A stretch of 64,000 bases of DNA, taken from Tubiluchus corallicola (taxonomy: Eukaryota > Priapulida > Priapulimorpha > Priapulimorphida > Tubiluchidae). This document shows positions 30,601 to 56,576 of the stretch, piece after piece; the stretch's first letter is position 1, and each line of letters begins with the position of its first letter. Both the position numbers and the translations under genes were made by a program. Location: NCBI GenBank assembly GCA_030141605.1, contig JAQGDQ010000265.1, positions 216,001 through 280,000 on the forward strand. The letters run 5' to 3'. The notes under the pieces were generated by a model. It had not been told where the DNA came from and ran no database searches. It was given only the letters and a program-made list of their open reading frames with translations.

Positions 30601-32501
30601 TGAAAAAGTCAGAGGTCAGTGGAAGAGCATCGCAACGAAAATGCTAAGGTCACAGGAATGAATTGTCACGGATTCCCGTGATTGAATTCTACTCTACAGC
30701 ATTGCAAACTAGTTTATTCCGGTTCTATAACCTTTGCAAATTTATCTAGAGTCATTCAATTAGGTTAACCTTGAATTATTCATACGGGCTTCATTCCGAA
30801 GCTATAAATTCCTTCGTCACCATTGTACAGGTGAGCATTTGACGCTTGCTTTTCCTACAAGCAGACGTTAAATGGTCCGCCTAATTCGTTAGGCTAATTT
30901 TTTTCCCCTTTCTTCAATAGTTTTTTTTATGGTTATGTGCTGATGTGTATCTATAATTAAGTTTACTGCTGTTATAAGTAGTAACTATGTAATTGCGACA
31001 AATCTTGTGAATTGAATAAATTTTATTTGGGTGGCCACTCCTTTTAAACCAATGGTTATGAAGTTTTTGTTAAGAGTCAAAATTTAGTCTAAATTATATG
31101 TTTCAGTAACAGCAAACCATTCTAATTATCAACTCGTAGACTTAAGCGTTATGCACCTTTCTCTATAAAAAATATACTAGACTATATACACTTCCACGTA
31201 ATTGTTTAATTAAGAACCAGGACGACGTCTCTCCCACAAAACTTCATGAAAAATTTTTGAGCTTTTTTCACATGAATATTCCTTTTCAAAAAATAATTGG
31301 TTTTTGAACTCACATTATTGTTTACTAATTCACTCATGCACTTACTTAGTCCGATAGTTACTTTTGTTCTCACAGCAATAATAACAAGAACTTCAAATGA
31401 GTGTACATTTCACTGCTATTTGCTGACCTGTGTGTTTTCTGTAATGCGGTTTTATGACTTTTCTGTATTATTAGAGTATGTACAATAGAATTAATTTCAC
31501 TTCAGAACTTCTTAGAGTCTCGTTATATCAATTTAACGACTTACAGAAACCATTATAATGTAACAATTCTTGACACTGCAAAATTTTGCACTATGCAGGG
31601 TCACCACCATTTTACATAATATTGTACAATTTTTCTTCAGGGGTCCTACACCGTCATTGGCAGTCTGGTTTCAATTATCATACTGTACATTAAATTTAAT
31701 TTTTTAAAATTTTCAATGCTGTGCTTCATGATGTGCTCATAGTGTTGTTGCATGTTTTTGTAACATGATAATATGAATTAAATAACTTGGGACTTATTAT
31801 TCATCTTATTCGACCGAGGACTGCACGGACCGCAAGCTTGGTATAAGCCTTATATATCATGAAGAAACAGTTTACGAGGTGTTTGTCCGAAATTAGAGTT
31901 ACATTTTAACAAATCAACATTGGTCTAAATGCACAAATTAGCAAAAATGATACTTGGCTTACTCCACTTTCTAAGTAACTTTGTTTTGTGCAACAGTAGA
32001 CATTTTGACCAATGGCATGCCTGGATTAATCTTTTAACCTGTTAGTGTTACATGGCAAATATGCTTGAGTAGTCATACTGCTGTTGAAAAAACCATGCAA
32101 TAGAAGTCTTTTATCACTATTATGCTGTAAAATTGTATTGTGTATCTTCCATTTTAGCCAATCAGCAGTGTAAATTTTTTCCTAATATTGAACAGTAATA
32201 CAATTTAGTAACAATAGTAACTTTTAATTAGTTAACAACCTTTCCGTACACAAACTAAGTTCAATAAACACGGACAAAGTTTGTTCCTAATTTTCTAGCA
32301 TCATTTTTAGCTCATTTTCTACTTGTTACAATACGTTCAAGCATGGGAGAGATTCAACTAATGTTAATGTATCTTTACACAGTTATTGATTATCTTATTT
32401 TTACTTGAGTTATAGGGCACTCGTTCGACTATTATTTCAACTATTGATAATTGGTTCTGCTGCTTTAAACCAGTGTTCAACTACTGCTAGGTACCTACAA
32501 A

Positions 32502-33099: not shown

Positions 33100-33250
33100 C
33101 TGTGTGCTGTATCGAACTGAAATCGCACGTGACGAAACAAAAACCTAAAGTCAGCAAAAGCTATGTGAAAAGATTAAAACCCAGTGAAATGGTGTAGCAG
33201 TTCCAGACATAGCAAATTAATAACTCAAGTTCAAAGAATGGCACAAGGCC
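33100..33250 (-). promoter_or_regulatory. Possible noncoding first exon and promoter region of the DUF1761-like gene
   Basis: On the minus strand a strong splice donor (CAG then GTAAGT) ends at 33100. The sequence to its right has relatively many CpG sites and no long open frame. It would splice to the acceptor at 29373. This is the last stretch I can call animal; its 5' limit is arbitrary. Confidence 0.35.
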
Positions 33251-33969
33251 ACACACTACGTGTAGTTACGACGGTTGTCTTTTATACAGATAGCGGCGTG
33301 AGATCCAACAACTAATGCCAATGCGCAATGCCAAAGGGTTATAGAAGTCCAGAAAAGTAGCTGGAGCTCTTATAACTAAGTTAGATAGCAATGATGGAAA
33401 GTAATTGTTAAAAACGGGCAACAGGAAAAGCAGCATCAAGACGAATATCCCAATAGACACGAATAAGTGTCTTTGTCCTTTGTCCCTAGAGAAAACCTCA
33501 AAAGACACAGGACGAATTATCCCCAAGAGAGAGAGTGTCCCCGCTCTCTTCATGTTGTCACTAGCCCATCACTTAATACGCTCAATGTCAAATTGGATCA
33601 GTATTGGAGAAGATTTTGCTATATTCTTCCGCCAAGTGCGCCAAAGAGAAGAAAATGCCTGAAGAGGTCCTCTACTTTCCTGAAGTTATTCGTGTTAGAT
33701 CCAACTGGGAGCAGAAGCCTACCTGGATACTGCCTCATAAGAAACAATTTAAGAAGGATATCACTGACAAAGATGCCTCAGAAGAGCAGGAAAATCAAAG
33801 AGGCCAGAGACGCTAATTAGTCGCTCTTTAGCACTATCTCATAAACTGTGTAAATAGAAAATACCGAGGATTTGGCTCTATTTATAGCTGGACCCTTTTT
33901 TCAAGTAAAATTAAGAGCTGGTTCAGTACAACGAACACCCCAGCTTCGGGTTGGCAAGCACACTATTGC
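33250..33969. other. Transition zone between animal and bacterial DNA
   Basis: No recognisable gene. Two open frames, 33266-33553 on minus with a hydrophobic stretch and 33655-33816 on plus with 53 codons, match nothing I know and overlap other open frames, so neither is called. Base composition becomes less AT-rich to the right. The junction is somewhere here. Confidence 0.6.
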
Positions 33970-34110
33970 TTAAAGAGACTTGGAAACCTCCACTTCCTTA
34001 AAGGCTTCAATAAAATCTCCCACTTTTATGTCGTTATAAGAAGCTATATTTAGGCCACACTCATACCCGTGTGTTACCTCTTTGGTATCCTCTTTAAAGC
34101 GTTTCAGAGA
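33970..34110 (-). pseudogene. infB: 3' fragment of infB (translation initiation factor IF-2)
   Basis: The last 46 codons of IF-2 plus stop [21 protein letters not shown] and [12 protein letters not shown] are the conserved end of domain IV-2, which binds fMet-tRNA. The remaining roughly 900 or more residues of a normal IF-2 are absent. Reading upstream, the frame runs into sequence belonging to a different gene (34104-34238, another frame). The open frame starting at 34176 is therefore a fusion artefact, not a small gene. Confidence 0.88.
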
Positions 34111-34238
34111 CTCCTTAGAACCACAGGGGGAATGGTGTCTTTTGCTCCTCCCGAAGGCATTCCCATATTGGCACACGACAGGGAGAACACGGTGAATGCC
34201 CAGACACCAGCAGCGAAGTATAGTATTTTTTTATCCAA
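34104..34238 (-). pseudogene. 5' fragment of an Ig-like domain lipoprotein gene, truncated
   Basis: Starting at a TTG 36 bases beyond the DUF4270 stop, the frame reads a hydrophobic signal peptide, a lipobox FSLSC (Cys 22), then [18 protein letters not shown], the typical start of Bacteroidetes outer-surface lipoproteins with SbsA/Big_5 Ig-like domains. It meets a stop 44 codons in, exactly where IF-2 text begins; the two share the bases AGGAGTCTCTG. The intact family is several hundred residues long. Same strand and spacing suggest it was the natural downstream neighbour of the DUF4270 gene. Confidence 0.7.
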
Positions 34239-34273
34239 AAGAAGAGTATATAAGTATTTTTATTTTAATGAGT

Positions 34274-35626
34274 TTAGTATCTGGTGTATATAACTTCCAG
34301 TTTAATGGGCTTAGAGCTGTTTCCGCTTTTAAGAATAACTCTTCGCATTGATGACTTCCAGCTATTATGAGTGAGGTAGAATCCCAGGTTTTTTATTTTA
34401 TCACTCTCATCAACTTCTGAGTCCTCACGATTGCTGTCGATCAGGTTTTGTAAATGCTGTGTGATGTTAAATGAGTAAGCTGCATTTTCTGTGTCATATT
34501 GTCCTCCATAGTAGTCGCTTGCCAACTTATAGTCATCTGGGAAATCATACTCTTCATCATTAATAATGTATTTGAGGTATAGACTGCCCGGGTTTCTGTA
34601 TCTCTTTATGTCTGACATCATGGTGTCAGCATAGAAAGTGACTGTTGCCCTATTTATTGTTATATGCGTAGAGTCTGCCCAATCATCTAACGATGGGATT
34701 AAAACTTTGGCTTTGGTACCTGCGCATGGTTGTATGAATATCAAAGAGTCTTGCTCCTGTTCCTGATCGGTTTTACCATAAAAGACGGCCTTTTCAAAAT
34801 CATGCTCAAAGGAGGATACATTGGCGGAGTTTGAAGAAACATTATATTGATAACTTAAAGAGTCATTTTCGTTATTGTGAAAATATAGTTTTAACGCTAT
34901 TGATCCAGGAGATATTCCTATCAGAGTTCCCTTTCTGCTAACAGGTTCAGGCATTACAAGCAGCCCTTTAAAATATTTCAGAAAGTTTTCGTTATTGGCT
35001 ATATCCTCAGGCTCGACAGAGAGTAGCTTCTCTCCAATATCATTATTTAAGCGTACCTGTACATTCTGTGAGATAGTCTGATTATTAGTTGAGTCTATTC
35101 TAAATTTAGGAACAAAGCTACCTGTTCCTATGCTATTGTTCATATTGGCCATAGAAGATAGATCAAACGAAGAAAGGTATATTGCATTCGAGTTTAATGA
35201 TTCTTCAAGTTCGTAAATATTAAATGTTTGTTGTGTTAATGTGTCTCCATAAATGCCGTTATATGTAAATGTAAATACAAGAGAGTCAACAACTGCTTCT
35301 TCTCCGAAATCGGGTTTGCTAGGCAGTCTTAACTGCGCTGCAAAGCCAGCGTCTGTTCGCCCGAAAGCGGGGTCATAAAAGCTTCCAAATATGTTTGTGC
35401 TTGGGGATTCTACTGATACTCGACTGTCAGTAAATGTGAAAGCAGAGTTTGTAGATAATTCAGTTTTAGCATGAGCACTCAACAAGTCTTTATCTGGCAA
35501 TAAGTTAAGGGCAAGGGTACCATCTCCCTTTTTACATCCTGTAAAGAAGGCTGGTAAAATTACAAAAAGAACGAAGGAGGTTTTGTTCCTCCAGGCAGAA
35601 TAGCTATAGCGAGACAATCCAGCCAT
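34274..35626 (-). CDS. DUF4270 family lipoprotein
   Basis: A Bacteroidetes-specific surface lipoprotein of unknown function. The chosen start gives 450 residues: a hydrophobic signal ending LPAFFTGC (lipobox Cys), then the DUF4270 signature FGSFYDPAFGRTDAGF about 60 residues later, and a beta-rich remainder. Other in-frame ATGs up to 35683 would overlap the preceding gene; 35626 or 35632 avoid this. It follows the GT5 gene on the same strand by about 20 bases, so the two are probably cotranscribed. Next to GT5 and panC this is a common Bacteroidetes arrangement. Confidence 0.88.
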   Translation of the reverse strand: MAGLSRYSYSAWRNKTSFVLFVILPAFFTGCKKGDGTLALNLLPDKDLLSAHAKTELSTNSAFTFTDSRVSVESPSTNIFGSFYDPAFGRTDAGFAAQLRLPSKPDFGEEAVVDSLVFTFTYNGIYGDTLTQQTFNIYELEESLNSNAIYLSSFDLSSMANMNNSIGTGSFVPKFRIDSTNNQTISQNVQVRLNNDIGEKLLSVEPEDIANNENFLKYFKGLLVMPEPVSRKGTLIGISPGSIALKLYFHNNENDSLSYQYNVSSNSANVSSFEHDFEKAVFYGKTDQEQEQDSLIFIQPCAGTKAKVLIPSLDDWADSTHITINRATVTFYADTMMSDIKRYRNPGSLYLKYIINDEEYDFPDDYKLASDYYGGQYDTENAAYSFNITQHLQNLIDSNREDSEVDESDKIKNLGFYLTHNSWKSSMRRVILKSGNSSKPIKLEVIYTRY

Positions 35627-35645
35627 TATCATATAAAAAGTAAAG

Positions 35646-36449
35646 TTACGTAAGGGTGTCGTAAAACTTAGAGTATGCATCAATATACGAACTTTTTGGT
35701 TGAAAATCTAAAAAAGGCTTTCTAGCTTCTTTTACATAGCTTTCTACTTCATTATTGATGGTTTCACTCCCTTTTATGGTTGCATCTGAGTAGTCAATGG
35801 CCAGTTTGCAAAGGTTAACATAGCTTGGCTCTGAAAGTACTGATACATCGTCTGCAGGTATTCCGTCATAAGCAATTTTATTTACAACCTCTTTATCCAA
35901 AGGTGTCTCAAATTCTTCATCGTATATAGAGTATATGACTTGTGAGTTTTCGAACAAAGGGTTGTCTTTGTATATTTTTTTCACTAATAGCGGGACAAAG
36001 CCGGTAAACCATCCGTGGCAGTGTATTAAGTCAGGTGTCCATCTAAGCTTTATGACTGTTTCCAAAACACCTTTTGCAAAAAACATAGCACGTTCGTCAT
36101 TGTCTGCAAACCACTTTCCTCCTGAATCTTTCAGTACAGCTTTTCGCTGGAAGTAGTCTTCATTGTCGATGAAGTAAACCTGCATTCTGGCAGCTTGAAT
36201 AGATGCTACTTTTATTATCAGCGGATGGTCGACATCATTTATAACAAGGTTCATCCCTGAGAGGCGAATAACTTCATGTAGCTGATTTCTTCTTTCATTT
36301 ACACATCCGTACCTAGGCATAAACGTTCGTATCTCTTTCCCACGCTCCTGAATTCCCTGCGGCAAAGATCTGCCTATATCTGAGACTTCCGAACTTGGAA
36401 GATAAGGCGATATTTCCTGAGAAATAAACAAAATCTTCTTTTTTTTCAT
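35646..36449 (-). CDS. Short glycogen/starch synthase-like protein (GT5 N-domain only)
   Basis: The 267-residue product begins with the GT5 Rossmann start KKILFISQEISPY and contains DLIHCHGWFTGFVPL, a conserved GT5 segment. It stops before the C-terminal GT-B domain, which holds the nucleotide-sugar and E-x7-E catalytic residues in full synthases of about 480 residues. Such single-domain proteins are usual next to DUF4270 and panC in Bacteroidetes, so this is likely a natural short form. Whether it synthesises glycogen is doubtful on its own. The residue normally forming the KxGGL loop is replaced (SSEVSD), another sign of lost catalysis. Confidence 0.85.
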   Translation of the reverse strand: MKKKKILFISQEISPYLPSSEVSDIGRSLPQGIQERGKEIRTFMPRYGCVNERRNQLHEVIRLSGMNLVINDVDHPLIIKVASIQAARMQVYFIDNEDYFQRKAVLKDSGGKWFADNDERAMFFAKGVLETVIKLRWTPDLIHCHGWFTGFVPLLVKKIYKDNPLFENSQVIYSIYDEEFETPLDKEVVNKIAYDGIPADDVSVLSEPSYVNLCKLAIDYSDATIKGSETINNEVESYVKEARKPFLDFQPKSSYIDAYSKFYDTLT

Positions 36450-36700
36450 TCGTAGAATGATTTAATCTTTTATACTACAATGAGGACTATTGCTAAATTT
36501 CAACTGTTTTAAAAAGTCTGCAGCAAATAGAATGCTCCATATCCCCTGTTCTTCTCTTTAACTATAAAAATATTTTACAAAGTTAAGTAAAACCACTCAA
36601 TATTCAATACTAAAAAGTTCTATCGTTTAATTTGGCGCTAATATGGCAGTTGTTAAGGAACTATTTTAGAGTGATTTGTTGGATTTGACCTGCAGGTTTT

Positions 36701-37146
36701 ATGAAGTATAGCAGAATCAGTGATTATAAAGTAAAAAGATTCACCAACTGCTTTTGTAGTGGTATTGATGCTACAAAAGCTGCTGAGGTTTTATCCTTAA
36801 ATTGAAATAGTGTGTAAGGCGTTATTTTAGAATTTTCAGGAATGAAGTTTGTCAAAACAGATAAGAAATAAATAATTGTTTTTTGGTGATGTTAGCTGAA
36901 GTTTATTTTGGTACGAAAAGCTAGGGGGAGTAAATACGCCTCAAAAAATGGGAAGAGGTACTTAGAGGTAGCCCGTATTTGGAGTTTTACCGAAAGAAGG
37001 TTAGCTAACTTAATGGATAAATTTACATCTGTCCAGCACTTAAAAGAGTGTAAAAGGAGGTGGATAAAAGCCTTAAAGGTAAGGGAACCAGCAAAAAACA
37101 CAGGTGTATTTTGCAAAGACAGAAGCATAATAGTTTTGATAAAGTA
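36701..37146 (+). pseudogene. Broken IS1595-type transposase
   Basis: From ATG 36701 the frame reads MKYSRISDYKVKRF, then IDATKAAEVLSLN and a stop, which resembles the N-terminal helix-turn-helix of IS1595/ISXO2-like transposases. Further on, in other frames, EVYFGTK (36900) and KGKGTSKK (37077) recall the family's DExYFGGKR and GRGTSKKTPVFG motifs. At least three frames and several stops are needed, so it is dead. No flanking inverted repeats were found. It fills most of the divergent gap between the GT5 gene and panC. Confidence 0.65.
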
Positions 37147-37373
37147 GGTTTGTCTTTAGAGATTCTTTTTGAATGAAGGCCAAAAATCTCCTACTCTAGA
37201 GCTTTAATTATTACAGCTGGCAAAATAAGAGTTTATTTCTAAATAGGCATAATATTTTGTATATCAGGTCTGAATGCTTAGTGTGTCTCTGCTTTTATGA
37301 TTGCAGATAAGTAATAGTTTTTACCGTATTGGTATATTTCTTTACTTTTGGAGCCTTAATTTTGAATTGTAGG

Positions 37374-38222
37374 ATGAAGTTTTATACGACAAAACAGCAG
37401 CTTATTGCAGCTATTAAGGCTGGGAGAAAGCAAGGGTCATCAGTAGGATTTGTTCCAACTATGGGTGCTCTTCATAAAGGACATTTATCACTTGTGGAAA
37501 GGTCAGTCCGGGAGAATGAAACTACAGTAGTGTCTATATTTGTAAATCCTACACAGTTTAATGATTCGGATGATTATAGGAAGTACCCCCGAAGTATAAA
37601 CGAAGACACTGCTCTGCTTTCCAGCTCCGGGTGTGAATATGTTTATATCCCTGGAATAGAGGATGTGTACTCCCAGTCTGATACCCGACAGTTTCATTTT
37701 GGAGAGCTGGGAGAGGTGATGGAAGGGGTGTCCAGGCCTGGCCATTTTAATGGTGTAGCACAAGTTGTGAGCATTCTTTTTGATATTGTTGAGCCTGATA
37801 AAGCTTATTTCGGACTGAAAGATTTTCAGCAATTAAGTATTATTAAGAGTCTTGTTACACAACTTGATCTTGATGTTGAGATAGTTCCCTGTGAGACTGT
37901 AAGGGAAAGTGATGGGCTTGCGATGAGTTCAAGAAATACGCTTTTGACAAATACACACAGGATGGCAGCCCCACTGATATATCACACTCTTAAGAAGGCC
38001 AAAGAGCTTGTTGGTAAAAGGAGTGTAAGCGAGCTAAAAGAGATGGTTGTTGAGACAATCAATAAGAATCCCTTTTTAGAGGTCGAATATTTTGATATAG
38101 TTGATAGTAATAATTTAAAATCTGTAATTTCGCACAGTGGGCATGAAACGATGGTCGGCTGTATTGCCGTTTTTGCAGGGGATGTTCGATTGATAGATAA
38201 CGTATTTTTTGAAACGATTTAA
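37374..38222 (+). CDS. panC: Pantothenate synthetase
   Basis: Joins pantoate and beta-alanine with ATP to give pantothenate, the vitamin B5 precursor of CoA, in the cytoplasm. The 282-residue product carries [17 protein letters not shown] (HxGH nucleotidyl-transferase motif at residues 34-37), FVNPTQF, the [10 protein letters not shown] segment, YFGLKDFQQ and the SSRN (KMSKS-like) motif. The start is ATG 37374; an in-frame ATG 45 bases upstream adds a non-conserved hydrophobic stretch and is rejected. panD follows after 11 bases on the same strand. Confidence 0.97.
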
Positions 38223-38233
38223 ACTTTTTTATA

Positions 38234-38584
38234 ATGTTTATTGAAGTTTGCAAGTCAAAGATTCACAGGGTAACTGTTACCGGAGCAGATCTACAATATG
38301 TTGGGAGTGTTACCATTGATGAGGATATTATGGATGCTGCAGATCTTATTGAGAACGAGAAAGTACAAATAGTAAATATCAATAATGGGGAACGCCTTGA
38401 GACATATGTTATCAAGGGAGATCGTGGTTCGGGAGAGATATGTTTAAATGGGCCGGCTGCCAGAAAGGTTGCTGTTGGGGATGTTGTTATCATTATTTCT
38501 TATGCTATGATGGACTTTGAAGATGCTAAAAGCTGGAAACCCCACCTCGTCTTCCCCGATTCTGAGACAAACAGGTTGGTATAG
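38234..38584 (+). CDS. panD: Aspartate 1-decarboxylase
   Basis: Makes beta-alanine from aspartate, supplying PanC. The 116-residue proenzyme has the YVGSVTID site; self-cleavage is expected between Gly24 and Ser25, turning Ser25 into the pyruvoyl cofactor. LNGPAAR and [10 protein letters not shown] are family landmarks. Length is normal. It is cotranscribed with panC. Confidence 0.97.
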
Positions 38585-38686
38585 GATGCTTGTTTTTTGA
38601 TCTTGTTTGGCTGGGGTGCTGGTTGTTTGCTAGTGGAGCTTGTCTATTGAGATCTATTATTGTTTTGATTTCCACTTTTTAGTTTT

Positions 38687-40036
38687 ATGCTTAAAACAAA
38701 AACCATTTTTATTTGCCAAAACTGCGGAGTACAGTCTCCTAAGTGGGTTGGGCGTTGTGTTTCGTGCAACGAGTGGAATACATATGTGGAGGAGGCTGTA
38801 TTGAAAAAAAAGCCCGGACAGCCGTCTATTATTTCTAAAGGACTTTACCCTGTAAATTTACAGGATGTGGATTTATCAAAGCAAGAGCGTATTGACATGC
38901 TGAATGGTGAGTTTAACAGAGTTTTGGGGGGAGGTCTTGTTCCCGGTTCAGTTGTCCTTTTGGGAGGGGAGCCGGGAGTAGGTAAATCTACGCTAGTACT
39001 GCAGGTTGCACTTAGCTTAAAAGGGAAAAAAACGCTCTATATATCTGGAGAGGAAAGCCTTCAACAGCTTAAAATGAGGGCAAAACGTATTAGTAGGCAG
39101 AGTGAAGACTGTTACTTTTTGTGTGAGACCTCCGTAGAGATAATTATTTCCCGTATTGAAGAGTTAAAGCCAAATATGGTAATAGTTGACTCTATCCAAA
39201 CGCTGTCAACAGAGATGGTGGAGTCGTCTCCCGGTAGTGTTACACAAGTCCGTGAGTGTACAACAAGCATATTGAAATATGCAAAGATTAAGCATATACC
39301 GGTCATTTTGATAGGACATATAAATAAGGAGGGTAGCCTGGCCGGCCCTAAAGTTCTGGAACATATTGTTGATACAGTACTCCAGTTTGAGGGAGACAGG
39401 AACTACCTGTATAGAATATTACGTTCGATAAAAAACAGGTATGGTTCTACTTCGGGTGTTTTTGAAATGTGTCAGGATGGGCTGCGAGAGGTGCCAAATC
39501 CGTCGGAGATACTACTTTCTCATAATAATAAGGGGCTGAGTGGCACGTCTATCGCTTCCTCTGTAGAGGGAATGAGAGTGTTCATGGTTGAGACCCAGGG
39601 GCTTGTAAGTTCTGCCGTTTATGGAACTCCCCAACGTTCGGCTACCGGATTCGATCTGCGTAGGATGAATATGTTATTGGCTGTTTTGGAAAAAAGGGCA
39701 GGTTTTAGGCTGATGACAAAAGATGTGTTTCTGAATATTGCGGGTGGCTTGAGAGTTGATGATCCAGCAATGGATTTGTCTGTTATTGCTGCTATTCTTT
39801 CATCTAATTTTGATGTTGCTATTAACAAGCAAATATGTTTTGCCGGTGAGGTGGGGTTAACTGGTGAGATTCGCCCTGTAAGCAGGATAGATCAACGAAT
39901 CATGGAAGCTGAAAAGCTGGGTTTCGAAGAGATATATACTTCAAAATACAAAAATGGCAATAATTTTTCAAGGTTTAATATTAAGGTAACCCAAATTGAA
40001 AGGATAGAGAAGTTGATAAAGCTAATCTTTCGTTGA
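38687..40036 (+). CDS. radA: DNA repair protein RadA
   Basis: A RecA-like ATPase that processes branched recombination intermediates. The 449-residue product has a C4 zinc finger (Cys 10, 13, 24, 27), Walker A GGEPGVGKST at 93-102, the RadA-specific KNRYG motif at 249-253 (usually KNRFG) and a Lon-protease-like C-terminal domain lacking the catalytic serine. It starts 102 bases after panD on the same strand. Confidence 0.97.
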   Translation: MLKTKTIFICQNCGVQSPKWVGRCVSCNEWNTYVEEAVLKKKPGQPSIISKGLYPVNLQDVDLSKQERIDMLNGEFNRVLGGGLVPGSVVLLGGEPGVGKSTLVLQVALSLKGKKTLYISGEESLQQLKMRAKRISRQSEDCYFLCETSVEIIISRIEELKPNMVIVDSIQTLSTEMVESSPGSVTQVRECTTSILKYAKIKHIPVILIGHINKEGSLAGPKVLEHIVDTVLQFEGDRNYLYRILRSIKNRYGSTSGVFEMCQDGLREVPNPSEILLSHNNKGLSGTSIASSVEGMRVFMVETQGLVSSAVYGTPQRSATGFDLRRMNMLLAVLEKRAGFRLMTKDVFLNIAGGLRVDDPAMDLSVIAAILSSNFDVAINKQICFAGEVGLTGEIRPVSRIDQRIMEAEKLGFEEIYTSKYKNGNNFSRFNIKVTQIERIEKLIKLIFR

Positions 40037-40440
40037 TGGTACGTGCCATACAGGTACAACCCTGCCATCTTTTAATTTCTTTGCTGTATCTACCAGTTTA
40101 AGGCTGTAATAAGCACTAGTGTGTTTAATGCCGGTTTTTTTAGTAGTAATTGCACTTCCAGGAAGTTCGAGAATCAGGTATTCATCTGCTCAGTCATCAC
40201 TCAGGGTCATAATAAAGTCATGTTTTTGTTTTGGCGGAAATTCAGTACAGAAATCCCTTTGTTTATGCCGGCAGTTTTTACTTCCACCACTTTGTTATCC
40301 TCCATAATTTCATCCATCTTTCGAGGTCTTCACAATCGTGACCGCTTATTATGGCTATTATATTCTTGCTATCTGATTTTAAGGAGTTTAATAGGAAAAT
40401 ATTGCCTCAGGTCTGGCAATGATTGTAGCAGTTAACCTAT
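40022..40440 (-). pseudogene. Remnant of trehalose-6-phosphate phosphatase (otsB-like)
   Basis: Pieces of the HAD-type phosphatase can be read on the minus strand in two frames: NIIAIISGHDCEDLERW (motif 2 region), then NKVVEVKTAGINKG, then an ADEYLILELPGSAITTK-like segment and HTSAYY. Stops fall where GDD..DE should be, and about 90 residues are missing between the first two pieces. The frame ends TAG at 40022, overlapping the 3' end of radA. The intact homologue is either stand-alone OtsB or the C-terminal half of a bifunctional trehalose synthase/phosphatase. Confidence 0.7.
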
Positions 40441-40611
40441 CTGAGGGAGCAGGAAGTGGTCATCCTTTAAGGGTCAATTTTTGTTGAGATAAAAATTTAC
40501 TATTTGTATATTTTGATCTGATATACAATAAAGTCCTCTGGAGACTTAAAAAAGTGTACGATTCATATTGACGATTATACAGTTGTTTTTGAAGTAGTGC
40601 ATTCTTGGAAC

Positions 40612-40769
40612 AGAAGAGGCAAAGGTCAAGCTGGTAAAGGTTTTCTTTATGCTATTTTGTTTTGATGTAAAAGAGCCAAAAAAATCAAGTTTGTAAGTGT
40701 TTTTTACGTTCATTTTGTCTTAGTGCAAAAGAGCCCCAAGGTCAAGCGTGTAAGTGCTTTTGATGAGGA
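40612..40769. repeat. Three imperfect ~56-bp direct repeats
   Basis: The units share (A)AAGAGxCxxAAxxTCAAG, then xTGTAAGTGxTTTT, at about 40612, 40666 and 40722. They are noncoding and lie in the gap between radA and the ferredoxin gene, beside the phosphatase remnant. Nothing else is recognised between 40441 and 40834. Confidence 0.55.
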
Positions 40770-40834
40770 GAAAGGGTATGACTCAGGCTGAAAAAAAATT
40801 CTAGGAAATAGCAGCAGGGTGCTTAAGTAATAGG

Positions 40835-42448
40835 TCAAAATGGGAACTCGTCGTCTTCCAGATCTATTTTTGCTTTCTCTGTTTTTGGCTTTTGAGCATC
40901 AGCATGCACGTAGTTGCCGTCAACATATATCGCTTTTATGCCTGCATCCAGAGGGCATGCGTGTTCACAGGCACCGCAACCAACACAAGTTTCAGTCGTA
41001 ACTTCCGGAATAAATAGATCGCCATAAGGAACCATTGCAACAGCTTTTGTTGGACAGTGTTCAGAGCACGCTCCACAGTCAGTGCCGTCAGTTTCAACGA
41101 TACAGTTGTCTTTTACAAATTTAGCCTGTCCTACTTGCGTAATATGTTTTTGTTCCATTGTCAGCGGCTTTATTGCCCCTGTTGGGCACACGTCACCACA
41201 TACAGTGCAGTCAAAGCTACACAGTCCTGAGACAAAATCCATGTGAGGCTGCATAAACCCAATTAGTCCGTATTCACTAAAAGCAGGCTTCAGTACCTTT
41301 GTAGGACATGCACTGACGCACAGCGAGCATGCTGTACAAATATTATTAAATCGCTCTATTCCTCCTGAGCCGGGTGGAGATACAGGGTGATTCTTATTCT
41401 CAGGAAGCATTTGGTTATTTGCGGAGCTGTGGTTGTGCTTCCCACCTTTACCTCTTTTCCTATGCTGTGCCAGCGCTTTTTCCCCTCCACAAAGGGAGAC
41501 TATCCCTAATATCAAGAAAGCAATAAAGCTCCTTTTCTTTAAATCGGTAGTATCCACTTTCAGATCTGTTGTACTTAGTTCTGCACTTGTGCGTTTTTGC
41601 TTCATCCTATACAGCGCTCCACCCTCTTTGCATGCAGAAATACAGTTGAAGCATAAAACGCAACGACTATAGTCCACCTTTTTGTGTTTTAGGTTAATGC
41701 ACTCTGATTTGCAAGCACGCATACAGTTACCACATCGGGTACACAACTCTTTATCTAATTCAATTTTTAGTATAGAGAATTTGGATAAAAACCCCAGAGC
41801 TGTGCCTACTGGACATATCATATTGCAGTACAGTCTTCCGCGAGTGAAAGACATGAGTGCTACTGCCGTAAGTGATAAAAGGGTTATTGCCATTATTCCC
41901 CAATGGATTAGCTGCAAGTCATAGCGATATAAAACAGAGTATACTCCAGCTGAGATAAAAGCTTCTGCTCCAATATTGTTTAGCCAGATAACTACAGGTT
42001 TGAACAGGTATGATACAGTTCGGCCAAACAGGCTATACGGATCAAGAAGAGAAAGGAAAGTAATTCCTCCCATTACCGCTGCTAACACTGTTATGCCCAA
42101 AATGGAATAGCGTGTTGCTGTCCACGTCTTTCGATATTTATAGCGTACCTTTTTTACTCTTTTTGCTATTTGGGATATAATATCCTGTAATATTCCCAGG
42201 GGGCATATGGTTGAACAGTACACCCTCCCAAGCAGCAGAGTCAAAACCAGTATTACTATGAAACCTAGGTGCAGTATACCTAAAACAGAAATGCTTTTCA
42301 AAATAGAAGGCACAAATTGCAGATAAACGGCCCATTCATAGAACTGCTTGTCCAGTATACCCCTTAAGTCAATAAATAAAAATGTAATGGGTGCAAAAAA
42401 CAACAGGGCTAAGATAACCCTGAGTTTTTTAAGTAGCGATGGCTTCAT
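40835..42448 (-). CDS. Membrane-bound polyferredoxin (NapH-type membrane domain plus 4Fe-4S clusters)
   Basis: A 537-residue electron-transfer protein. The N-terminal half has several membrane helices and two CxxxCP motifs (CSTICPLG, CNMICPVG) as in NapH/CcoG-like proteins. The second half carries several 4Fe-4S motifs: CTRCGNCMRAC, CVLCFNCISAC, CTACSLCVSACP, CTVCGDVCP, CGACSEHCP and CVGCGACEHACP. The DUF362 gene is 12 bases upstream on the same strand, suggesting a two-gene operon. It probably passes electrons between a membrane carrier and a periplasmic or cytoplasmic partner; the substrate is unknown. Confidence 0.88.
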   Translation of the reverse strand: MKPSLLKKLRVILALLFFAPITFLFIDLRGILDKQFYEWAVYLQFVPSILKSISVLGILHLGFIVILVLTLLLGRVYCSTICPLGILQDIISQIAKRVKKVRYKYRKTWTATRYSILGITVLAAVMGGITFLSLLDPYSLFGRTVSYLFKPVVIWLNNIGAEAFISAGVYSVLYRYDLQLIHWGIMAITLLSLTAVALMSFTRGRLYCNMICPVGTALGFLSKFSILKIELDKELCTRCGNCMRACKSECINLKHKKVDYSRCVLCFNCISACKEGGALYRMKQKRTSAELSTTDLKVDTTDLKKRSFIAFLILGIVSLCGGEKALAQHRKRGKGGKHNHSSANNQMLPENKNHPVSPPGSGGIERFNNICTACSLCVSACPTKVLKPAFSEYGLIGFMQPHMDFVSGLCSFDCTVCGDVCPTGAIKPLTMEQKHITQVGQAKFVKDNCIVETDGTDCGACSEHCPTKAVAMVPYGDLFIPEVTTETCVGCGACEHACPLDAGIKAIYVDGNYVHADAQKPKTEKAKIDLEDDEFPF

Positions 42449-42460
42449 GTTGAACGCAAT

Positions 42461-43375
42461 CTATATATTAATCCGATTGATTTTCAACTTATTCATATCC
42501 ATGGTTCCAAAGCCTTCGTCATTACCACTTTTAATGTGCCCCACCTCTTCCGGTTCCATACCGAAAAACTTCGCAGCAGCAGCATCTGCTGCAACGATAT
42601 CTGCAGATATTACCTGTGTTTTCATGTTTACAATATCATCAAGCGATACGCCCATTGGTCCATTTTGAGTCATAACATAATAGGCATCAATGATATTCAG
42701 GTCAGGTTTTCGCAGATTAAGAAAGTCTGTGATACACTGGTGTAAGTCATTTTTATGGTAGAAGCCACGATCCCATACACATCCCATAAGGTTTTTCATA
42801 GCTATAGTTAATTTAGTAGAGCTATGGTGTTTTAGTATGGGAATATTGATAAATACATCACTATCAAGTACCAATTCATGGACAGAGATCTCTTTGAGCC
42901 GCTTACCACTCTTTATTTCAACTTTTCGATACATCTTCTCATCATTGCCTGGCACAATCTTCCCTCCTGCTTTTTTAACAGCGCTTTCAATCCCGGAGTT
43001 TTTATAGCACTTCGTCCACTCATGGCATGTGTGGTCAAAAACAAGTACCTCTTTGGCTCCAGCCTGAAAGCAGTGCTCTGTAACCCTTTTTACCAGTAAA
43101 GGGTGAGTATTGCCTCCCCTTTCAGGGATTCTGTCCCATCCAATATTGGGCTTAAGTAGTACTTTATCTCCTTTTTTTACAAATTTCTCCATGCCCCCAA
43201 GCGAAGCGATTCCTTTATCAAACATCACATCCGGCTCACCACCGCGAACAGCCACTAGGTCGTAGTTGCTATCAGCGCTTTTAGCAAAGATATTTTTCGC
43301 TCCTCCAAATGTTAGGGCTGTACTTGTTGCCACTCCTGCTCCTACACTTGTTCTAATAAAGTTTCTCCTTTTCAT
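42461..43375 (-). CDS. Tat-exported DUF362 protein
   Basis: A 304-residue protein starting MKRRNFIRTSVGAG, a twin-arginine signal followed by a hydrophobic stretch, so it is exported folded, probably with a cofactor. The DUF362 core shows VLLKPNIGWD, VFDHTCHEW and NIPILKHHSSTKLTIAMKNL. The family is often found with ferredoxin domains. Here the ferredoxin is the next gene (40835-42448). The reaction is unknown; the pair is presumably a redox unit. Confidence 0.88.
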   Translation of the reverse strand: MKRRNFIRTSVGAGVATSTALTFGGAKNIFAKSADSNYDLVAVRGGEPDVMFDKGIASLGGMEKFVKKGDKVLLKPNIGWDRIPERGGNTHPLLVKRVTEHCFQAGAKEVLVFDHTCHEWTKCYKNSGIESAVKKAGGKIVPGNDEKMYRKVEIKSGKRLKEISVHELVLDSDVFINIPILKHHSSTKLTIAMKNLMGCVWDRGFYHKNDLHQCITDFLNLRKPDLNIIDAYYVMTQNGPMGVSLDDIVNMKTQVISADIVAADAAAAKFFGMEPEEVGHIKSGNDEGFGTMDMNKLKINRINI

Positions 43376-43945
43376 CTGTTTATAATTTAATTTTCTATTG
43401 TCAAAGTAATCATTTATTTGTGTGTGTCCAAAAGCGGTTAGCTTCAGAAGTACAAATTGGTAGCAGAGCTTTTGTGAGTAATTATATTTTTATTTCCCCT
43501 ATTTAAATTGTTGCGGGCGTCCTCACTATTAGTTGTTTAAGCATTAGGAAGTCCGCGCCTTCTGAAGTTGAAGCTGCATTTACCACTGTACAGCATATCA
43601 CAAATATAATTCTAAAATGAGAGTTTTCCAAAATAGAGAGAAAGCTGCTAGAGTGCCTGAGTATACTTTTAATAAAAAGGGAAACAGGCTGTTCAAAGGG
43701 GTGGTTTTTTGCAGGGTGCAAAATATTGATTCAGGCTGGTGAAAAGCTTGATAATAAATGTTTGTTTGCAGGTAAAAATGAAAATTTTGATAGGAATGTT
43801 AATTAAAAGGATGAGTTTTGCAAAGACTTCAAGCTGTATTAATTGTGTTCAAGTTTTAAATAGCTATTTTTATGGTCGAGGAAGGTTGTCAGCAAATTGA
43901 TAGCAGGCGACTAGGTATTTATTATTTATAACAATATTTAAATTA
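43376..43945. other. Intergenic region between divergent DUF362 and fucosidase genes
   Basis: It holds no recognisable gene. Its right part contains copy A of a dispersed repeat (43704-43825). The open frame at 43503-43721 minus has no family signal and is not called. Confidence 0.6.
43704..43825 (+). repeat. Dispersed bacterial repeat, copy A
   Basis: About 122 bases, running from GGTTTTTTGCAGGG to GGATGAGTTTTGCAAAG. It is similar along its length to 59654-59776, with a nearly identical 3' end. It stands 120 bases upstream of the first fucosidase gene, same orientation relative to the downstream gene as copy B. Confidence 0.7.
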
Positions 43946-45421
43946 ATGAAAAAGACAGCTTTATTATTATTACTAGGTTTTTACACGGTAAATATTTTTT
44001 CTCAGGCCATATACGAGGATGAGCGTTATGTGCCGGAGACTGACCCTCTGGTGGTTGAAAAACTGAAAGATTGGCAAGATATTAAGTTTGGACTTTTAAT
44101 GCATTGGGGAACATATAGCCAATGGGGCATTGTGGAGTCCTGGTCGTTGTGTCCTGAGGATTATGGTTGGTGCAAGCGAAGAAAAGGGGAAAATCCCGAC
44201 AACTATTTTGCGTATAAGAGGGAGTATGAGGATTTACGAAAAACTTTTAATCCGGTTCATTTTGATCCTAATAAGTGGGCTGATGCTGCTAAGAATGCAG
44301 GTATGAAGTATGTTGTTTTTACAACCAAGCATCATGATGGGTTTTGTATGTTTGACAGCAAGTACACTGATTATAAAGTGACATCGAACGACTGCCCCTT
44401 TCATAAGAATGAAAAAGCCAATATAGCAAAAGAGGTGTTTGATGCTTTCAGGGCGGAGGGGCTATGGACAGGGGTCTATTTTTCCAAGCCGGACTGGAAT
44501 CATCCATCGTATTGGGATCCATACTTCCCCCCTCTGGACAGAAATGTGAACTATGATCCTGATGAGTATCCTGATAAGTGGGAAGCGTTTGTTCAGTTTA
44601 CGCATAATCAGATAGATGAGTTAATGACCGATTATGGGGATATGGATATTTTGTGGTTGGATGGTGGATGGGTAGCAAAGGTGCCAGAAGAGAGGCTTCA
44701 TAGGCATTATGAAGAGGCTAAAGAAAGTAAGAGTGGTTTTATAAAGAGGCGGAGAGTAAACCAGGATATTCGTATGGATGAGCTGGTGGAAAAGATCAGG
44801 GTAAAGCAGCCTGGCCTTATAGTAGTTGACCGCGCGGTATATGGTAAGAATCAGAATTACCTTACACCCGAAAACAGAGTTCCTGAGAAGACGCTTCCTT
44901 ATCCGTGGGAGTCATGCATTATTTCAGGTGGTGGCTGGTCTTTTAACCCCAATGCTAAATATATGAGTGGCAGGCAGGGTGTTCACACTCTGGTGGATAT
45001 TGTTGCTAAAGGGGGTAACCTTCTGTTGAATGTTGCACCGAGTCCGGAAGGTAAATGGCAGGAAGGAGCTTATAAGCTGCTTGAAGAGTATGGAGAATGG
45101 ATGGCAGTAAATAGTGAAGCCATTTACAATACTCAGCCGATTTATCCATTTAAGGAGAATAATATTTGCATGACCCAAAGACCAGATGGTAGCGTTTATT
45201 TTATTTATATGGCTGAAGAGGGGGAGAGGATGCCAACTGAAATTAGTATTCAGTCATTAAAGCCTGCGAGGGGTGCAAAGATAAAAATGCTTGGTAGTAG
45301 TAAAAAACTTAAATGGAATAGGAAGGGAGATAGTTTTGTTGTGTCTATACCACATGAGCTACAAAATAATCCTCCATGTAACTATGCCTGGGTATTAAAG
45401 GTTTCTAAGGTTGCTCAATAG
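43946..45421 (+). CDS. Alpha-L-fucosidase, GH29 (first)
   Basis: Removes alpha-L-fucose from glycans by a retaining mechanism. The 491-residue protein starts with a signal peptide ending about IFSQA, so it acts in the periplasm or outside. GH29 landmarks are FGLLMHWGTYSQWG (48-61), KHHDGFCMFDSKYTDY (128-143) and DILWLDGGW, where Asp 239 is the likely nucleophile. C-terminal beta-sandwich follows. Fucosidases at 45762 and 52535 and the sulfatase at 47111 are neighbours, suggesting breakdown of a sulfated, fucose-rich polysaccharide or host glycan. Confidence 0.95.
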   Translation: MKKTALLLLLGFYTVNIFSQAIYEDERYVPETDPLVVEKLKDWQDIKFGLLMHWGTYSQWGIVESWSLCPEDYGWCKRRKGENPDNYFAYKREYEDLRKTFNPVHFDPNKWADAAKNAGMKYVVFTTKHHDGFCMFDSKYTDYKVTSNDCPFHKNEKANIAKEVFDAFRAEGLWTGVYFSKPDWNHPSYWDPYFPPLDRNVNYDPDEYPDKWEAFVQFTHNQIDELMTDYGDMDILWLDGGWVAKVPEERLHRHYEEAKESKSGFIKRRRVNQDIRMDELVEKIRVKQPGLIVVDRAVYGKNQNYLTPENRVPEKTLPYPWESCIISGGGWSFNPNAKYMSGRQGVHTLVDIVAKGGNLLLNVAPSPEGKWQEGAYKLLEEYGEWMAVNSEAIYNTQPIYPFKENNICMTQRPDGSVYFIYMAEEGERMPTEISIQSLKPARGAKIKMLGSSKKLKWNRKGDSFVVSIPHELQNNPPCNYAWVLKVSKVAQ

Positions 45422-45434
45422 TTGAGGTTTTGAA

Positions 45435-45500
45435 AAGCAAGTGGCAATAGCGGGCTTTAAGTACACTCTTTGAGCAAGTATAAAGCCCGCCATTGCTTCT
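45435..45500. terminator. Bidirectional terminator hairpin
   Basis: GCGGGCTTTA (45450 area) pairs with TAAAGCCCGC at 45481-45490, extended by outer AAGCAA/TTGCTT pairs, followed by a T-rich run. It lies between convergent fucosidase genes and could stop both. The rest of 45422-45761 shows nothing else. Confidence 0.7.
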
Positions 45501-45761
45501 TTGTCTGTGTAATACAAAGAAGCAGGGGAGCGCAATAAGTTTAAAAAGGCCTTATAACAGGCGTTCTCTTTATGCGTGTGAAGAGAGGTGTCTTTGTGCA
45601 GAACGGATGGTTTAAGCCTGTCGCAATAGATTATCTAATTTAGTGTCAATCCAAAGTAGGAGACACCCGTATTATTTTATTTCCCGGCTAAAGTGGGTTT
45701 TCTTTCAAACTTTCCCTTAATAATCTGATAAGCCCTTTTGTCACGCGAAGGCTTCGTCCCT

Positions 45762-46859
45762 TTATTTAATTCTTTTGCCTGCTTCTTTTAGTGCTTTTAT
45801 GTCCTCTTCAGGGAAAGAGCCGTCAGCTTTTGGCCCGACATTTAGAAGTAGGTTTGCATTTATTTTTCTAGCATTTTCTAGCATTTTAATTATATCATCG
45901 GCCGTTTTATGATTCCCATCGTGTTTTTTACTGTACCCCCACGCGTGAGGTTGTAATGTGTTGCATATTTCGCGTGGTTTACCCTCATTTTTTTTGTATA
46001 CTGTTTTTGCTATTTCAAATTGCTGTCCAACCTTTGCATTCCCACCTCTTTCTGGTGCCATAAAATCTTCATCACCATTTGCTCCTTGTTTAAAAGATAT
46101 CAAAGCGTGAGGGGACATGCTTCGTATCAGAGCATAGGTCGAGTCAATAGGGAATAGGCTGGGACGTGCATAGTAGCCCATGATAGGGTCAAACCATATT
46201 CCTGCAATGTCGGGGTATTGGTTTAGCAGCTCTTTTAGTTGTTGATGAACAAAGTCAATATAGATTTCAAAGTCTTCATCTTTTTTGAATTTATACTCGG
46301 GTTGGGGCTCAGTGTATGCAGGCCTTCCACTAGCCCAGCCCTTTTCTCTTGAATAAAAGTAGGGGTGCTTCCAGTCAGCTCCATAAGAGTAGTACAAAAA
46401 TAGTCCAAGCCCTTTTCGTCTACAGGCATCGTAAAGCTCTTTTATTAGATCTCTCTTTGCGGGGGAGTTTAACACATTGAAATCGGTTGCTTTTGTATCA
46501 AACAGGCAGAAGCCATCATGGTGTTTTGTAGTGATTGTTATATACTTCATCCCGGCATCAATTGCGATATCTGTTATTTTATCGGCATTGAAGTTTTCAG
46601 CAGTAAATCTGTCTTTTAGTTTTGCATATTCCGCCACAGGAATAGTGTCTCTTAATTGAACCCATTCTCCTTTTTCTAAAATACTGTATAGGCCATAGTG
46701 GATGAACAGCCCATATTGCGCATCTTTAAACCATTGCAGGTTTGCAGCTTTTGGGTTCTCCCTGTACTCTTTTTTATAGTTCTGCAAATAGGATGGTACT
46801 TTTTTTGAACATCCGGCTAGTAATAAGAGTATAACAGGTATTAGAATAAGTTTTTTCAT
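45762..46859 (-). CDS. Alpha-L-fucosidase, GH29 (second), lipoprotein
   Basis: A 365-residue GH29 enzyme, shorter than the first because it has little beyond the catalytic barrel. The start MKKLILIP gives a lipoprotein signal with lipobox LLAGC; an upstream in-frame ATG at 46886 would only lengthen the leader. Motifs: YGLFIHYGLYS, KHHDGFCLFDTKATDF and GIWFDPIMGYY with the likely nucleophile Asp about 224. Probably anchored to the outer membrane. It points toward the first fucosidase and is divergent from the sulfatase. Confidence 0.94.
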   Translation of the reverse strand: MKKLILIPVILLLLAGCSKKVPSYLQNYKKEYRENPKAANLQWFKDAQYGLFIHYGLYSILEKGEWVQLRDTIPVAEYAKLKDRFTAENFNADKITDIAIDAGMKYITITTKHHDGFCLFDTKATDFNVLNSPAKRDLIKELYDACRRKGLGLFLYYSYGADWKHPYFYSREKGWASGRPAYTEPQPEYKFKKDEDFEIYIDFVHQQLKELLNQYPDIAGIWFDPIMGYYARPSLFPIDSTYALIRSMSPHALISFKQGANGDEDFMAPERGGNAKVGQQFEIAKTVYKKNEGKPREICNTLQPHAWGYSKKHDGNHKTADDIIKMLENARKINANLLLNVGPKADGSFPEEDIKALKEAGKRIK

Positions 46860-47110
46860 TATGTTTATATGTTTTATAAATATCATCGTTTGTTTGCTAT
46901 TTTGTAAAGTATAAGATTTAAAAGATATTCAATAATATAAAAAAATCATGCAATTTATTTTAAATTTGAAAATGGTTAAATTAAATGTAGTTTCGTCAAA
47001 TATATTAAATGTATTTCTGGAAAGCAATAAGAAATGAAGGTGAGTTTTTGGAAAAATACTTAAATCTGCCGGAATGAAGATAGAGGATAAAATTATTAAA
47101 TAGACTATAT

Positions 47111-48580
47111 ATGTTAAAAATTATGTTTAGTGGCTACCTGTTTTTTGCCGCACTTTTATTAGTGCCAACTTCAGTTATATCTATGTCATCCTCACAGTCT
47201 AAAAAAGAGAGAGAGCAACCGAATATTATATTTTTGTTTGCAGATGACCAGGCATATAATACGATTCATGTTTTAGGTAACCGTGAAGTGATAACGCCTA
47301 ATCTAGATAAGCTGGTTGAAAGCGGAGTAACTTTTACCCATGCTTATAATATGGGAGGGTGGAGTGGTGCGATTTGTGTAGCTTCACGAACAATGCTTAA
47401 TACAGGGCGCACTATTTGGAATGCACGCAAGATAGAAAAGCATTTGTCCCAAAGAGATTCGGTTTATATGTCACAGATGTGGGGGAACGTTATGGCTAAT
47501 GCCGGTTATGATACTTATATGGCAGGTAAGTGGCATATAAGAGCTAAGGTAGAAGACTGTTTTGAGTATATGGGCACCAAGCGGTCGGGAGGTATGCCTA
47601 ATCAGACTCCTGAGGGATATAATAGGCCGCTTCATGAAAACGATACAATCTGGCAACCGTGGCATAGGCAATATGGGGGATTCTGGAAAGGTGGTAAGCA
47701 CTGGAGTGAAGTATTGGGAGACGAGGCGGTTGACTTTATTAGTACGTGTAGGGAGCGTAAGAATCCATTTTTTATGTATGTGGCCTTTAATGCTCCCCAT
47801 GATCCGCGCCAGTCACCCAAGAGTTGTGTTGACATGTATCCTCTCGAAAATATTGAGGTGCCTAAAACATTCCTTCCTGAGTACCCTGATAAGGATGCGA
47901 TAGGGTGTGATAGGGAGTTGCGTGATGAGAAGCTGGCTCCTTTTCCCAGGACTGAGCACGCCGTTAAAGTTAACCGTCAAGAGTATTATGCGATCATTAC
48001 GCATATGGACAGGCAGATCGGGCGTATTATGGAAGCGTTAGAGAGTTCGGGACAAAAGGATAATACTTACATTTTTTATAGCGCAGATCACGGCTTGGCG
48101 TGTGGAGAGCATGGCTTAATGGGCAAGCAAAGTATGTACGATCACAGCATGAGATCTCCATTGATTGTGATTGGGCCAGATTTACCTAAAAATAGGCGAA
48201 TTGATTTGGATGTTTATATTCAGGATATTATGCCATCGACAATAGAGCTAGCAGGCTTTGAAAAACCTTATTATGTGGAGTTTAATAGTTTGCTGCCTCT
48301 TGCAAAAGGGGTGCAAACCCGAAGCTCGTATAAGTCAATCTATGGAGCATATATGGACAAGCAGAGAATGATCAGAGCTGAAGGCTATAAGTTGATCGTG
48401 TATCCACAAATAGCAAAAATGAAGTTGTTTGATCTTACTAATGATCCTTTAGAGATGAATAACCTGATCGGTAATGAAGAGTATTCAGCAAAAGCAAAAG
48501 AGCTGTTTGCCCGATTATTGATAAAACAGGATGAGATGGGAGATGGCCTGGACTTAAAAGGTATTTTTAAGGAGGATTAG
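47111..48580 (+). CDS. Type I sulfatase, exported
   Basis: A 489-residue arylsulfatase-like hydrolase that removes sulfate esters, most likely from the same glycan attacked by the fucosidases. A hydrophobic leader (about residues 5-25) indicates export. NIIFLFADDQ (metal-binding Asp 45/46) opens the domain. The formylglycine motif is CVASR (Cys 89 to Arg 93) followed by TMLNTGR, a CxAxR type needing an anaerobic-type or other maturase not seen here. GKWHI and a SADHGLACGEHGLMGKQ block complete the active site. The start may instead be ATG 47123. Confidence 0.94.
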   Translation: MLKIMFSGYLFFAALLLVPTSVISMSSSQSKKEREQPNIIFLFADDQAYNTIHVLGNREVITPNLDKLVESGVTFTHAYNMGGWSGAICVASRTMLNTGRTIWNARKIEKHLSQRDSVYMSQMWGNVMANAGYDTYMAGKWHIRAKVEDCFEYMGTKRSGGMPNQTPEGYNRPLHENDTIWQPWHRQYGGFWKGGKHWSEVLGDEAVDFISTCRERKNPFFMYVAFNAPHDPRQSPKSCVDMYPLENIEVPKTFLPEYPDKDAIGCDRELRDEKLAPFPRTEHAVKVNRQEYYAIITHMDRQIGRIMEALESSGQKDNTYIFYSADHGLACGEHGLMGKQSMYDHSMRSPLIVIGPDLPKNRRIDLDVYIQDIMPSTIELAGFEKPYYVEFNSLLPLAKGVQTRSSYKSIYGAYMDKQRMIRAEGYKLIVYPQIAKMKLFDLTNDPLEMNNLIGNEEYSAKAKELFARLLIKQDEMGDGLDLKGIFKED

Positions 48581-48754
48581 AACATACCTATAAAGCTACT
48601 ATTTTCATAGTCTCAGACAATTATTGTTTTTGTAATTCATCTTGAAAGCTTATCTAGCTGTTCGGTATTGTCCCGTCTGCTTTGAAGCTTTATCCCTGAG
48701 TTACCCCTGTATATAGAATAAAAGAGTAGTAAGTGTAATAGCACAAAAACTATA

Positions 48755-49864
48755 TTATTCGAATAGTAGTTCTACTTTAAGGTTTTCTGTTCCTCCGATA
48801 AACATATTTTCAACAATAAAGGGGACTCTCTTTCCGGCTTTTTGAGAAATCTGAGTTTCTGAATTTGCGGGAATTACTATTTTATTACTATTCTTTGTTG
48901 ACAGTGTGAATTTTATGTCAGAGTTATTTTTAACGGAGTAAACGGCCTCTTCCCTTCTCGCTGACCTACTGGTGACTTTACCTTCTCCTACCACCACACA
49001 AGCTTCAAAAATAGCTTTTAAGAATTCCTCTTTACCGATGAGAGTGTTGGTGAAGAATGCAACCGTTCTTTGATCAAACATTGCCTCTTTTATAGCCTCT
49101 TCTGAGCGGTCTTTTGCAAATACTAGGGTCATGGGGCGATGGTATTTATCCAGGTTATACATTTTTGACACCACACCGTGAATATCTGAGTTCCCTGTTA
49201 CAGCAAGATTTTTTTCTATACACCAGTCCAGAGCTATAGGGTACCATTCTACTTCATTGAAGACTTCGATCCCATGTATCAACCCTTTTTCGTACAGTTC
49301 CTGGTGTATATTCCACCACATTGTAGTGTCGGGTTGTTGTGCTTTCCATCCCGGGTGGTTCCACTTAATAAAAGCACCCTGTCTGGCGGCCTCTTTAAAA
49401 GCGTCCATGTAGTCTTCAGTATTTAGAGGGTTTACATCATTCACAAACAGGGCATTAAAGTGCCCGGGAGGCATGCCTCGTGAAATTTCACCGCCACGCA
49501 CAAGAATGATATTCTTTTCCAAAGCTCTGCCCAAAGCAATATCGTATGGGGAGTTATGGTCTCCTCCTACAAATCTTTTGGAAGGGTTGTTTTCAATATG
49601 ATCTGTTATAGAGATTGCATCCAGCCCCTCTTCCCATGCTTCATCAACTCTGAACGTGGGCCATACTGAGCCGTCGGAAAAGACCGTGTGCATATGAAAA
49701 TCACATTTAAGCGTTTTATATCCAAGAATGTCCGGTACTCGTATCTCTTTTCTTCCTGTAGCTGGTCGCCTCAGCTCTTCAGACAGGCGTATATTGTTCA
49801 TGTCCTGAGCAAAAGAGGAGACTACAAAAAGAGTGGTAATGGCAATAACAGTAATACGTTTCAT
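48755..49864 (-). CDS. Exported PHP-domain phosphoesterase-like protein
   Basis: A 369-residue protein with signal peptide (cleavage near SSFAQ). The PHP metal site is visible: HMHTVFSDGS (His 57, His 59, Asp 64), SITDHIE about residue 92, and GNSDIHG further on. PHP proteins use a multi-metal centre for hydrolysis, often of phosphoesters. Exported versions are common in Bacteroidetes glycan loci, but the substrate is not known. Convergent with the sulfatase gene. Confidence 0.85.
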   Translation of the reverse strand: MKRITVIAITTLFVVSSFAQDMNNIRLSEELRRPATGRKEIRVPDILGYKTLKCDFHMHTVFSDGSVWPTFRVDEAWEEGLDAISITDHIENNPSKRFVGGDHNSPYDIALGRALEKNIILVRGGEISRGMPPGHFNALFVNDVNPLNTEDYMDAFKEAARQGAFIKWNHPGWKAQQPDTTMWWNIHQELYEKGLIHGIEVFNEVEWYPIALDWCIEKNLAVTGNSDIHGVVSKMYNLDKYHRPMTLVFAKDRSEEAIKEAMFDQRTVAFFTNTLIGKEEFLKAIFEACVVVGEGKVTSRSARREEAVYSVKNNSDIKFTLSTKNSNKIVIPANSETQISQKAGKRVPFIVENMFIGGTENLKVELLFE

Positions 49865-50044
49865 GATTTGTCGCGGTTTTATTGTTTTAAAATATTTTTT
49901 TGGTTATTAAATTATCAGTTTGTATTTGGGGTATATTAAATTGTTTGGGCTGTATGGGAAATACCCATCCCCTCATTTTATATAGGTTGGATAGATGTGC
50001 AGCCATTAGTCTATTATTTATTATTATAAAGCTTCTTCACGCTT

Positions 50045-50257
50045 TTAATTGTATGGGTTCTTCGGGATTATAATCCACATTACCAGATATGCAATTGTGG
50101 CGGGGATAAGAAAGCTGAATACTGCCGCAATAGCAAATATAAGCCTGAAAATAGTTACATCTGCATTGAAGTACTCTGCAAGTCCTCCACATACACCACC
50201 AAGCTTAATCATGGTAGCTGAGCGACGAAGTTTTTTAGGTTCATTTTTTTGCTCCAT
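50045..50257 (-). CDS. PspC-domain membrane protein
   Basis: A 70-residue protein consisting of one PspC domain: LRRSATMIKLGGVCGGLAEYF followed by a hydrophobic helix AVFSFLIPATIAYLVMWIIIP. Related domains in phage-shock proteins sense membrane stress. No psp partners are nearby. Between 50258 and 50586 nothing is recognised. Confidence 0.9.
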   Translation of the reverse strand: MEQKNEPKKLRRSATMIKLGGVCGGLAEYFNADVTIFRLIFAIAAVFSFLIPATIAYLVMWIIIPKNPYN

Positions 50258-50586
50258 TTATTTGGTTGTAGTTTATATATAGGGTTTCTGGTTGAATCTA
50301 AAGTGTTGACATGTTTTACAGGTTGTAGAGTGTTAATATTTTCTACATAGTTTTTGTTAAAAAGAGTTCTGTTCTGTTCTGACTTTCATCCGGTGTTTTA
50401 GCAGTTCCTAGTTACATACATGATAGCTAAGATGCACGTCAAAGCTATAAATTTTTTGAAGTTAAACAATATTAGCCGGTTGCAATTTTTGGCTGTTATA
50501 GCAAAAATCTTACGCTGATATAATGTTTGATGATTAGATGTGACTTGTTTAGTTTTCGTCTGTGTGGAAGCCCCTTGCAGGGAGCA

Positions 50587-54619: not shown

Positions 54620-54656
54620 GGAGTTGCCTCAATATAGCAGATATTAAAGCCTTTGC

Positions 54657-56529: not shown

Positions 56530-56576
56530 TATGCTGAAGTTTACCTTCTTTAAAAATTAAAGATGTAAATTCGCAC

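Follow-up and report, generated by a model that had tools for sequence, protein, structure and literature searches.

The window analysed here, a stretch of 64,000 bases (C2237:216001-280000) from a contig of 314,940 bases in an assembly of 343.5 Mb and 2,344 contigs, starts in animal nuclear DNA and ends in bacterial DNA. Does this join record a transfer of bacterial genes into an animal genome, or a molecule that was never part of an animal chromosome?

Results

Animal nuclear DNA occupies positions 1-33641, with CCT7, nucleoplasmin-like and DUF1761-like genes and dispersed repeats; a repeat found at 30663-31275 is carried at about 40 places in the animal genome, and animal-like DNA is also present at the start of the contig (C2237:1). 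A sequence-only reading had described spliced animal genes on this side, and they are borne out: the CCT7 exons (3897-2942, minus strand) have AG/GT borders and match T-complex eta at 77 bits, and the nucleoplasmin-like exon at 12.6 kb and the DUF1761-like exon at 29.1-29.4 kb give weak matches slightly below the Pfam cut-off. The longest open frames per 1.5 kb measure 63-171 aa on the left, as against 137-499 aa on the right. A search for COX1 found none, and matches to the bacterial 16S model were fragments only, which fit the eukaryotic SSU model better. Eukaryotic SSU rRNA fragments were seen inside long contigs, next to coding frames (L111, L112 and L113, on C560 and C555), some of them covering the whole model in only ~1.1 kb; these are possibly rRNA pseudogenes.

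The bacterial block (34115-64000, plus strand) continues to the contig end at C2237:314940. It carries BamH-like, glgA-like, panC, panD and radA genes, together with genes for an Fe-S protein, three fucosidases, a sulfatase, a binding-protein/ABC importer, a TonB receptor and a BamA-like protein. An IS1634-family insertion sequence (54768-56416, plus strand) has a second copy, 99.6% identical, at the very end of C2237, and this second copy therefore also lies at the start of two other contigs, C31 and C1798. These genes and the IS1634 element uphold the earlier call of bacterial DNA on the right, with RadA reaching 72% identity to Bacteroidia MAGs. Against MAGs of freshwater Bacteroidia and of Mariniphaga the identity is 70-72%, and against Draconibacterium it drops to 65%. 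Two relatives, L024 and L034, conserve the gene order Ig-like gene, BamH, glgA-like, panC, panD, radA. RadA identity and gene order provisionally suggest a Prolixibacteraceae-like bacterium near the freshwater Bacteroidia MAGs. The bacterium is genuine and present in the sample, and its lineage has no close genome among those searched; a literature search for an animal genome with this associate found nothing useful.

At 43946-54619, three alpha-L-fucosidase genes, of which one encodes F5/8 type C domains, are grouped closely with a sulfatase gene and with a gene whose product has an Ig-like DUF5001 domain at its C-terminus. This is likely a locus of the associated bacterium for degrading a fucose-polysaccharide or mucin. 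Across the assembly, four distinct full-length bacterial radA genes were seen (on C1531, C452, C402 and C2237), which means that at least four bacteria contributed DNA to the assembly.

The sequence-only reading had placed the join of animal and Bacteroidetes DNA between 33250 and 33970, and the exact position, 33641/33642 (joint 1), falls inside this interval. The two kinds of DNA meet base to base, without Ns, and have 0-1 bp in common. The animal side finishes with 92 bases (33550-33641, plus strand) from the end of a dispersed repeat that is cut by the joint, and 12 further copies of this repeat occur on other contigs at 81-88% identity. The copy on C138 aligns up to exactly 33641 and diverges beyond, which sets the animal border at this base; identity of the bacterial side to C31 begins at 33642. 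Judging by its motif, the plus strand of the repeat may correspond to the C-terminus of a LINE reverse transcriptase. By a k-mer changepoint, animal DNA would already end at 33255, and 33256-33641 would be a third bacterial piece. This candidate was rejected: 33550-33641 is the dispersed animal repeat, a 95-aa frame in 33256-33641 had no match in families or in the genomes of 14 relatives, and 33240-33645 had no match among the bacterial contigs. No intact copy of the animal site of joint 1 was found in the assembly.

The same bacterial DNA is present on C31, which is colinear with C2237 for 59.5 kb (position x of C2237 being position 314941-x of C31). The part compared base by base, C31:40000-59487 (window 39454-58941), is 100% identical, and the terminal 3 kb of C2237 are again colinear and 100% identical. 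A segment of 5.3 kb found only in this window (34115-39450, plus strand) fills a gap of 5,267 N in C31 (C31:59492-64758). Past its gap, C31 carries on with an Ig-like gene and then infB, running natively through the Ig-like gene that the window breaks. C1798 (59,491 bases) is the same as C31 from the start of C31 to the gap, at both ends tested. C31, C1798 and C2237 have a common block and an identical end base, which suggests that the assembler used this bacterial contig more than once. Repeat positions on C1800 agree with those of a part of C1597 as far as an 11-N gap. Apparent reuse was also seen in the groups C1800/C1597 and C1830/C1721/C1700, where repeat spacings and end distances are alike, as if the contigs were nested. 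Absence of a match in searches with long DNA queries was not counted as evidence, since one such query missed its own locus.

A second breakpoint, missed by the sequence-only reading, lies within the bacterial part at 34110-34114 (joint 2). The 473-bp piece between the joints (33642-34114, plus strand) is 100% identical to C31:66314-66786, contains the 3' ends of the Ig-like lipoprotein gene (plus strand) and of infB (minus strand), and is inverted relative to the bacterial block to its right. The 5' end of the Ig-like gene (34115-34235, minus strand) is broken at joint 2, with the rest on C31; in L024 and L034 this gene is whole and stands next after BamH. The inverted join is made over a common pentamer, GGAGT (ACTCC on the plus strand), from which the sequence jumps to the opposite strand ~2 kb away on C31. 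The native path reads GTTCTAA-GGAGT-ATTCCAG, and its continuation, GGAGTATTCCAG, is at C31:64759. The window, in reverse complement, has GTTCTAA-GGAGT-CTCTGAAACG, matching the reverse strand of C31 at 66786; on that side C31 reads CAGAGACTCC up to the break and AGTTC after it. Beyond joint 2 the window tracks the reverse strand to C31:66314, and then animal DNA follows at 33641/33642. A blunt join made at random would have five or more bases in common with p ~0.005. An intergenic repeat of ~120 bp at 33832-33956 recurs in dozens of copies on bacterial contigs, at ~80% identity, and is probably a non-autonomous element of this bacterium.

These joints bear on whether an assembler or scaffolder merely misjoined animal and bacterial contigs, with no chimeric molecule behind them. 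Contigs are indeed reused in this assembly (C1798 recurs at the start of C31 and within C2237, and C1800 matches part of C1597), as such an error would have it. However, the shared sequence is at most 1 base at joint 1 and 5 bases at joint 2, with no run of N at either, and an overlap or k-mer join would need far more; the inverted 473-bp piece, too, requires a physical molecule. Because the homology is too short for assembler overlap, there must have been a chimeric molecule, and a pure misjoin is the least probable reading, with very little chance of being correct.

At least four further contigs are part animal and part bacterial. C2218 is bacterial to ~44.9 kb and then animal, the break sitting inside a glycogen-branching-enzyme-like frame (named by eye). 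The switch falls between ~64.5 and 65 kb on C1247, between ~98 and 116 kb on C1720, and between 600 and 700 kb on C1820. Sampled pieces, some of which read N, gave these calls by their open-frame length and G+C, together with shared bacterial repeats. C2195 matches the animal side of the C2218 joint over 885 bp at 99.4%, up to a gap in C2195, and stays animal where C2218 turns bacterial, providing an uninterrupted animal version of the site. No bacterial block flanked by animal DNA on both sides was seen on the mixed contigs; blocks, where traced, reach the contig end.

One could also propose that the animal genome has very recently received an insert of 65 kb or more of bacterial DNA, with a template-switch scar at its left end and with the other mixed contigs as further insertions. 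The joints are without N, as an insertion would have them, and the animal site of joint 1 does not occur intact elsewhere in the assembly; natural end-joining insertions also show complex junctions with short inverted filler. However, animal DNA was seen on one side only, although a second border could lie unassembled, and the block ends at the base where the free bacterial contig starts. The 19.5 kb compared are identical to the free chromosome, with genes intact and no decay, although a very recent insertion would look alike at 100% identity. In addition, at least five separate large events would be required, and an empty animal site exists for one of the contigs (the C2218 site on C2195). 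Insertion at this locus is therefore very unlikely, and equally unlikely is the wider reading that template-switching repair has very recently brought DNA of a Prolixibacteraceae-like associate into the animal's nuclear genome several times, tens of kb at a time.

Discussion

We estimate a probability of about 0.93 that the joint is a chimeric molecule from strand-displacement amplification or library preparation that was kept by the assembler, and is not gene transfer. A chimeric contig or amplification artefact had been preferred from the sequence alone, and this preference is supported by the double breakpoint with its inverted piece primed by 5 bp, as well as by the intact C31, the at least four additional mixed contigs, and the uninterrupted animal version of one site. 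We infer amplification, and not an animal chromosome, as the source of the molecule. In a sample that held the animal and its associated bacterium, a displaced 3' end may have annealed first to a displaced strand nearby, which gave joint 2, and afterwards to an animal molecule unrelated to it, which gave joint 1, as in MDA, and the chimeric molecule would have been retained in the assembly. Some points count against a chimera. The assembler took the joint path despite the native one, which implies some read support for the joint path. Microhomology-mediated repair in vivo can give the same type of junction, and, if there is a heterozygous insertion, C2195 may represent its other allele.

An amplification chimera at this locus is a clear case, at base level, of how such molecules can mimic lateral gene transfer. 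It is also a warning about this assembly, which holds at least five animal/bacterium contigs that appear chimeric, together with DNA of several bacteria. Claims of gene transfer based on it require read support.

Transfers of the Wolbachia type into animal nuclear genomes leave a large bacterial block contiguous with animal DNA, and the window is like them in this respect. Unlike them, it shows no second animal border and no decay, and several further joins of the same kind exist. In contrast to the Wolbachia type, this bacterial lineage is not known to live as a germline endosymbiont.

The locus is like the chimeras of MDA with phi29 (Lasken and Stockwell 2007, PMC1855051) in its inverted segment, its deletion, its span of <10 kb and its few shared bases. 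Among MDA chimeras, 406 of 475 (85%) were inverted; 337 of these 406 joined sites <10 kb apart, and 93.5% of the 337 used at least 2 shared bases (PMC1855051). The dominant MDA chimeras are inverted, carry a deletion, connect sites <10 kb apart and are primed by 2-21 bases, and joins farther apart are mostly without shared bases (PMC1855051). Here, 33642-34114 (C31:66314-66786) is inverted, with the native continuation at C31:64759, ~2 kb away, and with an intervening deletion, and GGAGT provides shared bases within the 2-21 range at joint 2; joint 1, with 0-1 bp, resembles the far switches of MDA, among which this is common (PMC1855051). The native unrearranged sequence is present in the same sample as C31, agrees with the relatives' gene order and, for the C2218 site, is found as C2195. 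Unlike in a typical MDA chimera, the second switch here goes from bacterium to animal, the rarer intermolecular kind, and the amplification is presumed.

Bacterial contamination and chimeric contigs in animal assemblies have been mistaken for lateral gene transfer, for example in a survey of 43 arthropod assemblies (PMC7003083). Such contaminants are likewise intact, gene-dense blocks that an associated bacterium has left in an animal assembly. Unlike them, the chimerism here is at base level, with a dissected junction, and does not consist only of separate contaminant contigs.
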